DNA of 42,852 bases from Nocardia farcinica (GTDB lineage: Bacteria > Actinomycetota > Actinomycetes > Mycobacteriales > Mycobacteriaceae), in assembly GCF_029867845.1 (NCBI RefSeq), contig NZ_JARWRU010001228.1, positions 1 to 42,852 of the forward strand, given 5' to 3'. A program made the position numbers and the translations under genes. The notes under the pieces are model-generated. The model had not been told where the DNA came from. It saw only the letters and a list, made by a program, of their open reading frames with translations, and searched no databases. This document shows positions 16,105-42,852 of the stretch, piece after piece (the first letter of the stretch is position 1; every line of letters begins with the position of its first letter).

Positions 16105-16449
16105 ATGAAGCTCGCCGAGCTGATCGCCACACACCGCCGCGACCGCACCTACACCCAACTCGAACGCGACGGCAACTGCCACCTCGGCGCCGCCCGCTGG
16201 GCACAACTCGCCACCGGAAACCTCCGTGCCTTCCCCTCCCCGGACAGCCTGCGCTGCATCGCCAAAGCCCTCGACGTCCCCGAAGAAACCGTCCTCCTCG
16301 CCGTCGCCGCATCGCTCGGCATCAACACCCCCCGCCGATCCCGCCTCGCCACCCTCCTCCCAGACCAAACAGATGACCTCTCCGACCAATCCGTAGCAGC
16401 AGTCATCCACGTCATCCGCGCACTCTGCGCAGCACAAGGAGTCCTGTAA
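16105..16449 (+). CDS. Probable immunity repressor, XRE-like
   Basis: 114 residues from an ATG at 16,105 with GAGGGGAA upstream. The N-terminal 65 residues (LAELIATHRRDRTYTQLERD, ARWAQLATGNLRAFPSPDSL, CIAKALDVPEETVLLAVA) fit an XRE-type DNA-binding domain in the variant form of actinophage repressors, with a less regular recognition helix. The C-terminus is a short helical part without a protease domain, so it is not a LexA-type cleavable repressor. The stop overlaps the integrase ATG as TAATG, coupling immunity and integration. Confidence 0.72.
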   Translation: MKLAELIATHRRDRTYTQLERDGNCHLGAARWAQLATGNLRAFPSPDSLRCIAKALDVPEETVLLAVAASLGINTPRRSRLATLLPDQTDDLSDQSVAAVIHVIRALCAAQGVL

Positions 16450-17666
16450 TGAGCAAGGGGGACGGCTGGATTCAGAAGAAGGTTCGAAAGAGTCCACGCA
16501 CCGGGAAGGTCACCACCACCTTCGTTGCCCGCTTCACCCCACCCGGCGGAGTGGAAGTCAGCAAGTCCTTCAAGAAACTGGGCCGCTCCAACGAACCCGG
16601 CACCGCCGCACACTGGCTCGCCCAGCAACGCGCAGACGTACACAACAACCAATGGGTCAACCCAAGAGACCGGGAATGGACAGTCGGCGAATGGGCCGAC
16701 GAATGGTTGGCCTCCTACACCGGCATCACCAAAGACAGCCTCGACTCCTACCGTGACGTCATCGAATTCGATATCAAACCCAGCGGTCTGGGAGATGAAC
16801 CACTCCGCTCCGTCGACCGCATCCGCATGGGCAAATGGATACGCGAACTCACCGAAGACCGATGGTGGGCCCCCGACCAAAAACCCCTCGCCCGCTCCAC
16901 CGCCACCAAACGCCGCACCATCACCGCCATGATCTTCGGCGCCGCACACGACGACGAACTCATACCCCGCAACCCCATGCGCCGAGTACGGGTAGCGAAA
17001 GACGACGTAACCGTAGAAGCGATCCTCCCCGAAGAACTCCCCACCCCCGACGAACTATGGAAGCTGTACGAGACAGCGCAGAAACACTCACCCCTGTTCG
17101 CCCCACAAATCCTCGTCGCCGCCGGCACGGGCCTGCGGCCCGGCGAAATCCTCGGACTCCAACGCGCCCACATCCGCAACCGTGAACTCCATGTGGTGCG
17201 GCAACGACAGATGAAAGCACCCACCCCCATCTACGGCCCTCCGAAGTCAGCAGCCGGGCGACGCCGTGTCCCGTACGGAGACACCGTGGAGCAGGCTTTG
17301 ACCGAACATCTCGAGGCGATCGATCCGGGGAAGGACGACCCGATCTTCCTGTCCCGTGGCCGCGGCGGACGCATCCGGGAGTGGCATCGCTCAACGTGGT
17401 CGGATCATTGGAGGCGGATCGTGGAGGCCGCCGGGCTGGAGCATCGACGCTTCTATCTGTGGCGCCACTATTATGCGTCGGTCCTGATCGAGGGCGGGGC
17501 GTCGCCGACGATGGTGATGACCCGCATGGGTCACAGCAACAGCAAGCACACCCTGGAAAGGTATGCGCATCTGTGGCCGAACACGGAGGAGGTGACGCGC
17601 GAGTTGAGCGAGCACGGACTGCGACGGGACAAAGACGGGACAATCCGTCCCGAGGACGAGGGCTGA
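16449..17666 (+). CDS. int: Tyrosine site-specific integrase
   Basis: 405 residues. An N-terminal beta-rich arm-binding part (GDGWIQKKVRKSPRTGK) is followed by a core-binding domain and a catalytic domain from about residue 195. Visible active-site residues are Arg in GTGLRPGEILGL, Arg-His in LWRHYYAS, His in MGHSNSKHTLERY, and the nucleophile Tyr in LERYAHLW. The usual HxxR box reads YLWR, so its first His is replaced by Tyr. It follows the repressor by a TAATG overlap. About 50 bases downstream lies a truncated cytidine deaminase gene that appears to contain the attachment site. Confidence 0.93.
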   Translation: MSKGDGWIQKKVRKSPRTGKVTTTFVARFTPPGGVEVSKSFKKLGRSNEPGTAAHWLAQQRADVHNNQWVNPRDREWTVGEWADEWLASYTGITKDSLDSYRDVIEFDIKPSGLGDEPLRSVDRIRMGKWIRELTEDRWWAPDQKPLARSTATKRRTITAMIFGAAHDDELIPRNPMRRVRVAKDDVTVEAILPEELPTPDELWKLYETAQKHSPLFAPQILVAAGTGLRPGEILGLQRAHIRNRELHVVRQRQMKAPTPIYGPPKSAAGRRRVPYGDTVEQALTEHLEAIDPGKDDPIFLSRGRGGRIREWHRSTWSDHWRRIVEAAGLEHRRFYLWRHYYASVLIEGGASPTMVMTRMGHSNSKHTLERYAHLWPNTEEVTRELSEHGLRRDKDGTIRPEDEG

Positions 17667-17715
17667 ATGCCTCCCGCCTGGGTGTGGGTGGGGGCGTGAT
17701 GGGAGGTGTGGCGAC

Positions 17716-17892
17716 GTGACCGCTATCGACTGGGATCTGTTGCGGGCCAGCGCATATGAGGCGATGCGGCAGGCTTACGCCCCGTACTCGCTATTCCCCG
17801 TGGGGGCTGCCGGGTGGACGGGGGGTCGGGTGGTGACGGGGGTGAACGTGGAGAATGTCTCAATCGTTACGCCCCGGACTACTCTCCGGTAA
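17716..17892 (+). pseudogene. cdd: 5' part of a cytidine deaminase gene carried by the phage
   Basis: A GTG at 17,716 with GGGAGGTG upstream begins a frame whose first 49 residues match the start of actinobacterial cytidine deaminase: IDWDLLRASAYEAM, QAYAPYSLFPVGAA, GGRVVTGVNVENVS. The real enzyme continues with YGLTLCAEC and the zinc site; here the frame changes at residue 50 to IVTPRTTLR and stops. It cannot be an active deaminase. Since it follows the integrase and identity to cdd ends sharply, it is best read as the phage side of an attachment site within host cdd. After integration the phage 5' part would join the host 3' part. Confidence 0.75.
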
Positions 17893-17938
17893 CCAAAAAT
17901 CATCACGGATTATCACCCGCTATCACGCGCTATCAGGG
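17845..17938. other. Candidate attP: core at the end of the cdd fragment plus arm-type repeats
   Basis: The core is expected within 17,845-17,862, coding NVENVS, where similarity to cdd ends. Forty bases on, four direct repeats start at 17,901 (CATCAC), 17,911 (TATCAC), 17,921 (TATCAC) and 17,931 (TATCAG), with exact 10-base spacing, one helical turn. Such phased repeats beside a core are typical arm-binding sites for tyrosine integrases. That both parts are present next to each other means attP is unbroken in this contig. Confidence 0.6.
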
Positions 17939-17997
17939 TCCGAACCCCCAGGAGACGCGACACCAGAGACACCAGCGACAGCCACCACAACGGCAAC

Positions 17998-18038
17998 CGG
18001 GACAACGACGGGACAAACCGGGACAAGCCGGGACACCA
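17998..18038. repeat. Second set of phased repeats beside attP
   Basis: Four units of the form CCGGGACAA follow each other at 10- to 11-base spacing (ACGGGACAAA is the second). They lie 60 bases past the TATCAC repeats and before the end of the minus-strand microgene. They could bind excisionase or integrase, or be an unrelated repeat. No gene is supported between 17,893 and 18,054. Confidence 0.45.
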
Positions 18039-18054
18039 CACCCGGCCCGCACGG

Positions 18055-18156
18055 TCAGGACAGCAACGCCCCGACGATCGACCACAGCGCACCCGCGATC
18101 ACCGGGACATCCCCGAAGTCGAGATTGCCCAACACCTTGCCCAGTGCAGCACTCAC
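18055..18156 (-). CDS. 33-residue hydrophobic microprotein after the endolysin
   Basis: GTG at 18,156 with GGGAGAA upstream; stop at 18,055. The peptide, beginning VSAALGKVLGNLDFGDVPV and ending in IAGALWSIVGALLS, has one short hydrophobic helix. It is the gene after the endolysin, where holins often lie, so a very small holin-like or lysis-accessory peptide is possible. The helix is short for a full span, so this is tentative. Confidence 0.45.
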   Translation of the reverse strand: MSAALGKVLGNLDFGDVPVIAGALWSIVGALLS

Positions 18157-18225
18157 GGCCGTTCTCCCATCACTCGATCCGCGCGGCCCGACCACCAGAC
18201 CGCGCCCCCGCCCGAAGGCGAAGAC

Positions 18226-19065
18226 CTACTCGCCGCCACCCAGCGACGACCGCCACGGGTACGGCAGCTCGCTGGTCATCATCTTCGGTTCGGCCGGGGG
18301 AACCAGCACCTCGATCAGGCGATCCACCTTGATCTCCAACGCCTTGATCCGCTGCTCATTGCGGAAGTCCGCAGCATCCGAGTTCAGCACATACCCGACG
18401 AGGGTGTCCCTGTACTCGGAGTCCGCCACCCGCGACCCGAACCCGAACGTCAACTCGTGATGGATGCGCCGCACCTTCTCCAACAGCTCCCGCTGCTCGG
18501 CATCCGACAGACCAGTCACCTTCTCGCCGCCCTTCAACCTGGCCGCGACCGCAGCCCGGAACATGTCCATATCCATCTGGCCGGGATCCCACTTGCCCTG
18601 CTTCGCCCCAGCCCATTCCTTGTGCCCGATCACCCGATCCGCACCCACACCGAGACGACGCACGATCGCCGCACAACACCGCACGTAGGCGTCATATTGG
18701 GTGGGGGACCAGCCTTCGGTGCCGTTGTTCACGGCCTCGATCCCGATGGCATGGAAGTTCGCGTTGTCCTCCGGCAGCCCCGGATACTTCCCGCGTCCCG
18801 CATGCCAGGCGACACCGACCGCGACCACGGTGGCGGTGCCGTCCTTCGCGAGATGGATTTGCGACAGCGGGCCCGCCAGATGCGGGAACCCGTACGCGAT
18901 CTCTGAGGCCGGCGTGTTGGAGCCACCTGTGTGGTGGGCGATGACGTGCGTGATCTGTTTGAAGTCGCCGTGACCGCGGTCTCGCCAGCCGGGGAACTCG
19001 ACAACGTTCACGCCTTCGGCGCGCAGCACGTCAGCGAGCCAAATCGGGTCTCCGGTCCAAGCCAT
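18226..19065 (-). CDS. Endolysin (LysA): N-acetylmuramoyl-L-alanine amidase
   Basis: 279 residues. It cleaves the amide bond between muramic acid and L-alanine at lysis. The Amidase_2 fold shows ITHVIAHHTGG with the first zinc His, IHLAKDGTATVVAVGVAWHAG, HAIGIEAVNNG, and VIGHKEWAGAKQGKWDPG with the second His and the catalytic region. The C-terminal 90 residues are a helical segment (LSDAEQRELLEKVRRIHHEL, IKALEIKVDRLIEVL) rather than a known cell-wall binding repeat. The ATG at 19,065 is used; a GTG at 19,074 is also possible and neither has a strong ribosome binding site. No mycolyl-esterase LysB is seen nearby. Confidence 0.88.
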   Translation of the reverse strand: MAWTGDPIWLADVLRAEGVNVVEFPGWRDRGHGDFKQITHVIAHHTGGSNTPASEIAYGFPHLAGPLSQIHLAKDGTATVVAVGVAWHAGRGKYPGLPEDNANFHAIGIEAVNNGTEGWSPTQYDAYVRCCAAIVRRLGVGADRVIGHKEWAGAKQGKWDPGQMDMDMFRAAVAARLKGGEKVTGLSDAEQRELLEKVRRIHHELTFGFGSRVADSEYRDTLVGYVLNSDAADFRNEQRIKALEIKVDRLIEVLVPPAEPKMMTSELPYPWRSSLGGGE

Positions 19066-42005: not shown

Positions 42006-42852
42006 ATGGTCGAACATTCTCCGCGGGCCCTGCGCTCACCGGGGCCCATGCTGGAATTCCTGCGTGGTCGTGACGTTCTCGTCGCGGGCTGGGGCGTCTC
42101 GGGGCGCTCGCTGGTCGAACCGCTGCGCGACATCGGCGCGCACCCGGTGGTCACCGACAGCGGCGCCGCCGCCCTGGCCGAGGCCGCCGGTCTCGGCCTG
42201 GAGGTCGCGACCTCCGTCGAGCTGGAGTCGGCCGACCTGAGCCGTTTCGCGCTGGTCATCACCAGCCCGGGCTGGCGGCCGGACTCGCCGGTGCTGGTCT
42301 CCGCGGTCACCGAGGGCATCCCGGTGTGGGGTGATGTCGAGTTCGCCTGGTGGGTCGACCAGGCCCGCATCTACGGGCCGGTGCGCAAATGGCTCGTGGT
42401 CACCGGCACCAACGGCAAGACCACCACCACCCAGATGACGCACTCGATCCTGCGCGCCGCCGGCATCCCCAGCGTGGCCTGCGGCAACATCGGCCTGCCC
42501 ATTCTGGACGCGCTGCGGCGCAATCCCGGCCCGCAGGTGCTCGCGGTCGAGCTGTCGTCGTTCCAGCTGCACTGGGCGCCCTCGGTACGCCCGGAGGCGG
42601 GCGTGGTGCTCAACGTCGCCGAGGACCACCTGGACTGGCACGGCGGCCTCGACGCCTACGCCGCCGCCAAGGCGAGGGCGCTGGTCGGCCGGGTCGGCGT
42701 GGTCGGCCTGGACGATCCGGTCGCGGCCACCCAGGCGCGGGGGGCGAAGGGCAAGCGGCCCCGCGGCGTGCGGGGGGGGGGGGGCCCCCCCCGCGGCGTT
42801 TGGGGGGGGGGGGGGGCAGGGGCCGGCCCCGCCCCGCCCACACCCCCCCGCC
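42006..42852 (+). CDS. murD: UDP-N-acetylmuramoylalanine--D-glutamate ligase, 3' end missing
   Basis: About 245 residues can be read before the sequence decays. ATG at 42,006. VLVAGWGVSGRSLVEPL is the UMP-binding start, TGTNGKTTTTQM the ATP-binding loop, ACGNIGLPI, LSSFQLHW and NVAEDHLDWHG the central ligase motifs. It adds D-Glu to UDP-MurNAc-Ala. From about 42,740 codons no longer match the family, and the tract after 42,761 is artefact, so the end is unreliable. Confidence 0.92.
   Translation, partial: MVEHSPRALRSPGPMLEFLRGRDVLVAGWGVSGRSLVEPLRDIGAHPVVTDSGAAALAEAAGLGLEVATSVELESADLSRFALVITSPGWRPDSPVLVSAVTEGIPVWGDVEFAWWVDQARIYGPVRKWLVVTGTNGKTTTTQMTHSILRAAGIPSVACGNIGLPILDALRRNPGPQVLAVELSSFQLHWAPSVRPEAGVVLNVAEDHLDWHGGLDAYAAAKARALVGRVGVVGLDDPVAATQARGAKGKRPRGVRGGGGPPRGVWGGGGAGAGPAPPTPPR
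42761..42852. other. Homopolymer G/C tract at the right contig end
   Basis: Runs of G and C like those at 126-298 replace the expected murD sequence. This is probably sequencing or assembly artefact. Confidence 0.8.

Follow-up and report, generated by a model that had tools for sequence, protein, structure and literature searches.

The start of a cytidine deaminase gene at the attachment site of a temperate Nocardia phage and its probable exchange with the host gene

Why does a phage carry, directly behind its integrase gene (int), the beginning of a cytidine deaminase gene (cdd)? The question is raised by the window, the stretch of DNA analysed here, which is the whole 42,852-nt contig C1228 of Nocardia genome G000 (an assembly of 1342 contigs). 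The window codes for a tape measure protein, an endolysin, a replication initiator, an anti-repressor and repressors and is thus phage DNA; virion and lysogeny genes occur together on the contig, as in a temperate tailed phage. Both ends (1-200 and 42650-42852) are low-quality G/C homopolymer runs without terminal overlap, probably an assembly artefact. From the analyses below it appears very likely that a temperate Nocardia phage, with its attP region in the window, recombines with cdd and gives rise to a hybrid gene in the lysogen.

The attP region and its relatives

The following features were assigned.

16105..16449, + strand: repressor-like gene (PHROG 12831, transcriptional repressor, E 2.5e-27; no Pfam match), one base common with the start of int
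16449..17666, + strand: tyrosine integrase gene (Pfam PF00589, Phage_integrase, E 1.5e-17)
17626..17643, + strand: P-arm sites, located in the 3' end of int, a pair of GGGACAA copies spaced 11 nt (GGGACA starts 17626 and 17637)
17701..17706, + strand: GGGAGG, ribosome binding site for the cdd piece
17716..17892, + strand: phage-carried 5' cdd piece, 49 Cdd residues followed by IVTPRTTLR and a stop codon
17842..17862, + strand: attP core region, the end of the cdd piece (...GTGGAGAATGTCTCA); the matching 21 nt are the same in attL and attR of G012
17880..17891, + strand: TAC-N6-GTA on the P' side, 18 nt past the core
17900..17939, + strand: four TATCA-type repeats with 10-nt spacing (starts 17900, 17910, 17920 and 17930), possible excisionase or accessory sites
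17998..18038, + strand: P'-arm sites, four GGGACA copies in steps of 10-11 nt (starts 17999, 18010, 18020 and 18030)

According to the original prediction, a frame with its own ribosome binding site behind int specifies the first 49 residues of Cdd and loses similarity after NVENVS, four repeats at 10-base spacing and a second phased set follow, and the attachment site is placed within the cdd piece. Coordinates and comparisons agree with all of these points. The frame has 58 codons, starting with GTG at 17716, 49 nt past the int stop, and ending with the stop codon at 17890-17892; similarity of its first 49 residues to the start of Cdd ends at NVENVS|IVTPRTTLR*. Both repeat sets are present, and the piece ends at the attP core, with attB located in cdd. 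Two further GGGACA copies, those within int, had not been listed; with these, members of the set lie to either side of the core. Nor had the prediction mentioned that arm sites occur within int or, as described below, the existence of fossil hybrids and the coincidence of attB with a conserved cis element.

The cdd piece matched, well beyond chance, in 147 of 150 Nocardia genomes (E 9e-19 to 2e-10, among the matches listed and the window itself aside); with the Pfam family dCMP_cyt_deam_2, E was 3e-4, below the Pfam cut-off. Nucleotide identity with host cdd, which had been proposed as a check, is present, reaching 72% over 86 nt for cdd of G000. Among the loci compared, the best DNA identity, 77% over 140 nt, was found to the hybrid-type cdd of G009. 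The window core and the G000 site have AATGTCTCA in common, with 9 nt in a row and 14 of the 15 bases of GTGGARAATGTCTCA; the window core is less like the site of its own host than the cores of its relatives are to theirs. For the four phage copies of the piece (six pairs), dN was 0.12-0.25, dS 0.57-1.40 and dN/dS 0.13-0.39. The piece is thus constrained as a protein in the phage copies.

Related integrases were found in two Nocardia genomes, G012 and G160 (58% identity each), and in the IMG/VR phage contig L111 (64%). All four integrases of at least 56% identity found in the searches are accompanied by a cdd piece, and for a more distant one in G104 (43%) no cdd piece was listed. A whole-genome scan with the integrase alignment yielded one named genome, Nocardia sp. 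CDC159 (G012). Homologues of the repressor-like gene are located directly before int in L111, G160 and G012 (54%, 50% and 47% identity, respectively). This gene, at 16105-16449 in the window, abuts int in all four relatives, and lysogeny control and int may be transcribed together as far as cdd.

The motif GGGACA is not rare in the window, with 26 copies on the + strand and 18 on the - strand, and the evidence for arm sites lies in their clustering and their recurrence in three relatives. In L111 and G160, a GGGACAA pair is likewise present in the 3' end of int, with three P'-arm copies at the equivalent place. GGGACG replaces GGGACA in step on both arms of G012, as would be expected if a single integrase reads the sites of both. 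The window, L111 and G160 and, as a variant, G012 thus have arm-type sites on either side of the core and an adjacent int, as in an attP region. L111 contains int, its own cdd piece, the core, TAC-N6-GTA at +18 and the arms in the order of the window, as well as a 10-nt repeat array resembling the TATCA-type set.

Prophage junctions in cdd and hybrid genes without a prophage

In G160 (two contigs), int (6742099-6743286) is located directly before an in-frame hybrid cdd (at 6741896), which is followed by deoA, and the 5' stump of the host gene (at 6805618), 63.7 kb away, adjoins sdhC. Portal, head, tape-measure and minor tail proteins are encoded between these prophage ends (five of the eight proteins scanned matched PHROGs). 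In G012, the host stump is found on contig C11, and int with an in-frame hybrid of 131 amino acids on C10, adjacency of the two contigs being assumed; the hybrid matches solved cytidine deaminases of the Mycobacterium type (PDB 3mpz, 3ijf) over its full length with E 1e-50. The sequence common to attL and attR measures 21 nt in G012 and 25 nt in G160, where it includes one C present in both junctions. To its right, attL continues with phage sequence like that of the window (TCAATC) and attR with host codons. In both genomes the junctions lie inside cdd after codon 49/50, placing attB in the 5' part of a protein gene. At the sequence level, position, frame, duplicated core and adjacency of the integrase are therefore established in two relatives.

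Two of the checks proposed with the original prediction, prophages ending in cdd and a hybrid gene in lysogens, are answered by these genomes: the related prophages end at the predicted codon, and an in-frame fusion of the element's N-terminus with the host gene, at attR, lies beside int. The prediction that the phage supplies the 5' end and places host cdd downstream of int, with a hybrid as the result, holds for G012 and G160; of the window phage itself no lysogen was seen, only the attP, and the cdd of its own genome is intact. Neither of the two outcomes named in advance as refuting the prediction occurred, since nucleotide identity with host cdd is present and the ends of the related prophages lie in cdd.

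We propose that the tyrosine integrase recombines the attP core, the last part of the phage cdd piece, with the site in host cdd. At attR, the ribosome binding site, start codon and 49 residues of the phage would be followed in frame by the host gene from codon 50/51, and the displaced 5' end of the host gene would stay at attL, next to sdhC. The lysogen would keep an uninterrupted hybrid deaminase downstream of the repressor-like gene and int. Given this position, transcription of the hybrid from phage signals, and with it a tie of pyrimidine salvage to lysogeny, is plausible. The hybrid enzyme should be active, and the window phage should behave in the same way as its relatives. In several Nocardia lineages, the prophage would have been lost later, leaving the hybrid as the sole cdd.

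Such genes emerged from a census of the 150 Nocardia genomes searched with the cdd piece, tallied among the matches listed (one second match, in G158, fell outside). The N-terminus was of the host type in 120 genomes and only of the phage type in 24, both were present in the two lysogens, one gene was cut by a contig end (G002), and three genomes had no match. The host-type N-terminus is one residue longer than the phage type. The distance between sdhC and cdd is about 0.3 kb in host-type genomes and 0.5-2.7 kb in the 22 phage-type genomes with both genes on one locus. A decayed, attL-like stump beside sdhC was detected in all 24 prophage-free hybrid genomes. In 22 of these, the best match in the stump search, 26-36 of 36 positions in every case, lay between sdhC and cdd, whereas 100 single-base shuffles for each gave maxima of 21-24 and three host-type controls reached 17-21; the remaining two, G015 and G074, likewise carry a stump. 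Past the core, the stumps resemble the P' side of the phage, not host codons. The core and the hybrid start are merely about 60 nt apart in G021 and G060. The interval between stump and hybrid is 2.7 kb long in G009, G158 and G159 (L015, L071, L078) and contains a 476-codon frame on the opposite strand.

A tree of sdhA was calculated for 43 of 146 genomes (22 fossils, 19 host-type genomes and the two lysogens). The fossils require five changes, at least four of them on well-supported branches, and fall into a clade of 14, a clade of four, the pair G021/G060, and the single genomes G023 and G126. Each change may represent either a gain or a loss, and support is weak for the forks around G023 and G126. 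Roughly, the fossil hybrids stem from about five events.

Could the cdd piece be a relic or passenger that imprecise excision took from a host and that plays no part in integration? Its size, only a third of the gene, and the intact cdd in the genome of the window would fit such an origin. The end of the piece, however, coincides exactly with the point of fusion between host gene and prophage in two genomes; the piece also recurs in four elements, each time among the same neighbours, and is constrained at the protein level; on these grounds the explanation, already contradicted by G012 and G160, was rejected and deserves hardly any credence. For the prophage-free hybrids, another origin was considered, either the start of cdd having been duplicated in tandem or gene conversion involving related genes. 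The types are poorly separated by N-terminal identity (means of 0.70 for phage-hybrid, 0.66 for phage-host and 0.66 for hybrid-host comparisons), three of the 24 hybrids (G060, G126 and G138) are closer to a host copy than to a phage copy, and no integrase match with E 1e-8 or better was obtained in the fossil loci scanned. N-terminal identity alone was therefore rejected as a type marker. Against duplication or conversion, each of the 24 stumps breaks off at the core and is followed by a P' start of phage type with TAC-N6-GTA, AAG is common to the phages and 23 of the 24 hybrids, and the shortening by one residue is found in 24 of 24. A duplication origin was rejected for these reasons and is regarded as very unlikely.

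Another doubt concerns the source of the window itself. The cdd gene of G000 (contig C341) is intact and empty, between sdhC and deoA, and the window phage is therefore not integrated there in this assembly; relative to G000 it may be free, induced or foreign. Origin of the contig from another organism, by contamination or as a phage in the culture, would agree with the low-quality homopolymer ends, with an unrecombined attP and an empty attB in one assembly, and with a contamination of G000 estimated at 2.2%. Integrase and attP of the window, on the other hand, match only Nocardia prophages among the sequences searched, and a foreign contig is a possibility we consider the less probable one, though a serious one. 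A DNA search with window positions 16400-18400 gave no match in phage records. In protein searches of these records, the cdd piece matched 12, 11 of them with less than 60% identity and no actinobacterial phage being named, and the integrase matched 945, all with less than 60% identity. The empty cdd of G000 and the possible contamination count against the reading of the window as an attP region that recombines with cdd, as do the weaker core match, the G104 integrase and the assumed adjacency of the G012 contigs.

A conserved DNA element at attB

The codon alignment of 19 host-type cdd genes revealed hardly any variation in codons -6 to 0 (TGC AAT GTG GAR AAT nTC TCA) or in some of the codons from +8 to +14 (GAA .. 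GTA .. GGT AAC). The element includes rare codons, TCA accounting for 0.5% of serine and GTA for 2.5% of valine codons in sdhA, sdhC and deoA. The sequence AATGTGGARAATNTCTCATAYGG was found in 116 of 148 genomes, namely in 114 of 118 with host-type cdd, in both lysogens and in none of the 24 fossils. The shorter AATGTSNARAATNTCTCA is present in 142 of the 148. It occupies the cdd position in all 118 host-type genomes; among the 24 fossils, 22 have it at the stump or on the contig of the stump, and G052 and G085 have near variants. A reversed-pattern control for the core search gave 0 matches. TAC-N6-GTA is located at +29 past the core in 19 of 19 host genes and in none of the 24 hybrids. It is found at +17/18 in all four phages or prophages and in 22 of 24 stumps, and at +28 in the other two stumps, its density in the loci examined being 1.2e-4 per base. 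The element, core and TAC-N6-GTA, lies inside cdd and coincides with attB in locus L010 (3983-4050). Untranslated stumps retaining it are those of L014, L015, L016, L017, L071-L092 and L138. In the clade of 14 species, the stump block has a mean identity to the consensus of 0.86, compared with 0.72 and 0.53 in its flanks; since a stretch at 676-950 is equally conserved, conservation of the stump is claimed only relative to its immediate flanks and on the genus-wide census. This second stretch (0.83-0.91), in the sdhC-cdd interval of G139 and 13 relatives (L072), lies nearer cdd, upstream of the hybrid gene, and may hold a small gene or serve the hybrid as a new promoter region.

We lean towards the view that attB is a host cis element overlapping cdd, most likely serving the divergent sdhC, and that the phage restores both the 5' end of cdd and this element. 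The core remains beside sdhC, as a host cis element would. The stumps keep core and motif, the hybrids lose both and the P' arm of the phage has TAC-N6-GTA, so that the phage seems to substitute for a cis element of the host as well as for a coding end. Its P' arm would bring TAC-N6-GTA to attL, 11-12 nt nearer the core than in the host, about one helical turn. After decay of the prophage, the stump would keep the element and the hybrid the enzyme, its codons free to drift; the overlap of coding and regulatory sequence would thus have been resolved repeatedly by phage. The element would presumably act on sdhC through some protein.

The frozen codons could instead reflect translation (pausing or mRNA structure) or the amino acids themselves, and the NVENVS peptide is indeed conserved across all types. 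TCA and GTA, however, are invariant across the 19 host genes, in contrast to the 24 hybrids with the same amino acids, which drop the frozen codons (TCC in 22 of 24), and untranslated stumps keep the core. Plain amino-acid conservation was rejected for these reasons, and a cause in translation or protein sequence appears unlikely compared with a DNA element read by the host.

The consensus for CRP/GlxR is TGTGA-N6-TCACA. On the sdhC-facing strand, the core fits it by eye at 8 of 10 bases, a weak match, and this identity was not adopted. Rfam searches revealed nothing in four loci. The element was absent from all 13 cdd loci of other genera in the order, and none of the same 13 had an sdhC match beside cdd. 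In viral contigs, the core pattern occurs in eight stretches, of which only L111 has the cdd context and TAC-N6-GTA. A second core copy outside cdd, with TAC-N6-GTA at +29, was detected in G091 (C121, L136; 11356-11373), 0.8 kb before a different tyrosine integrase beside tRNA-Leu, and the cis element may be carried there by a further mobile element. In G072 (C3, L135; 4003-4020), an exact 18-nt core copy without TAC-N6-GTA directly follows a phosphodiesterase-like gene. The copies in G072 and G091 and a variant in G014 gave no clue to the function of the core.

Relation to known integrating elements

Classical phages, such as phage 21 in icd and others, restore the 3' end of tRNA or protein genes, and replacement of the 5' end by integrating elements is rarer but has precedents. 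As in the classical cases, attP of the cdd phage carries a gene end and the target survives; unlike them, it is the opposite end, and the phage provides the translation start and expression signals. Compared with the Mycobacterium-type cytidine deaminases (3mpz, 3ijf), the enzyme of G012 is a hybrid of phage and host coding sequence. According to the genome data, the start of a host metabolic gene can be exchanged for good through phage integration, and within a single genus this concerns several lineages. Integration also brings to light a hidden, possibly regulatory element by parting it from the coding sequence. If the element acts on sdhC, a single stretch of 60 nt links a phage attachment site to a TCA-cycle operon and to pyrimidine salvage. 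The integrase with its well-defined attP and attB could serve as an integration tool for Nocardia. Searches of open-licence papers yielded no report of cdd with prophage and integrase, of a prophage with a cytidine deaminase attB in Nocardia, or of Nocardia temperate phages and their integration sites.

The closest published systems found are the dusA islands and prophages, in which a tyrosine integrase directs insertion into the 5' end of a metabolic or housekeeping gene (PMC4482086, PMC8409611). About half of 94 dusA islands are described as prophages, with a 21-bp imperfect repeat (Farrugia et al. 2015, PMC4482086; PMC8409611), and the elements are stated to supply a new N-terminus and promoter, that of IMEVchUSA3 being 61% identical over 35 residues (PMC8409611). 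ICE SXT is likewise reported to supply a new 5' end to prfC (PMC8409611). Given the dusA islands and SXT, the principle is already known. The cdd phage has the tyrosine integrase, the 5'-end target and the element-encoded N-terminus in common with the dusA elements as described, but differs in the gene, the host phylum and, judged by description, the integrase; the dusA passages contain neither prophage-free hybrids fixed in many species nor a cis function restored at attL. SXT, as presented in its source, is a conjugative element with another target gene, whereas the cdd phage has a larger 5' piece, 49 residues, and a fossil record. What appears to be new is the target, cdd, together with the fixed prophage-free hybrids that form this record and the double restoration of gene start and cis element.
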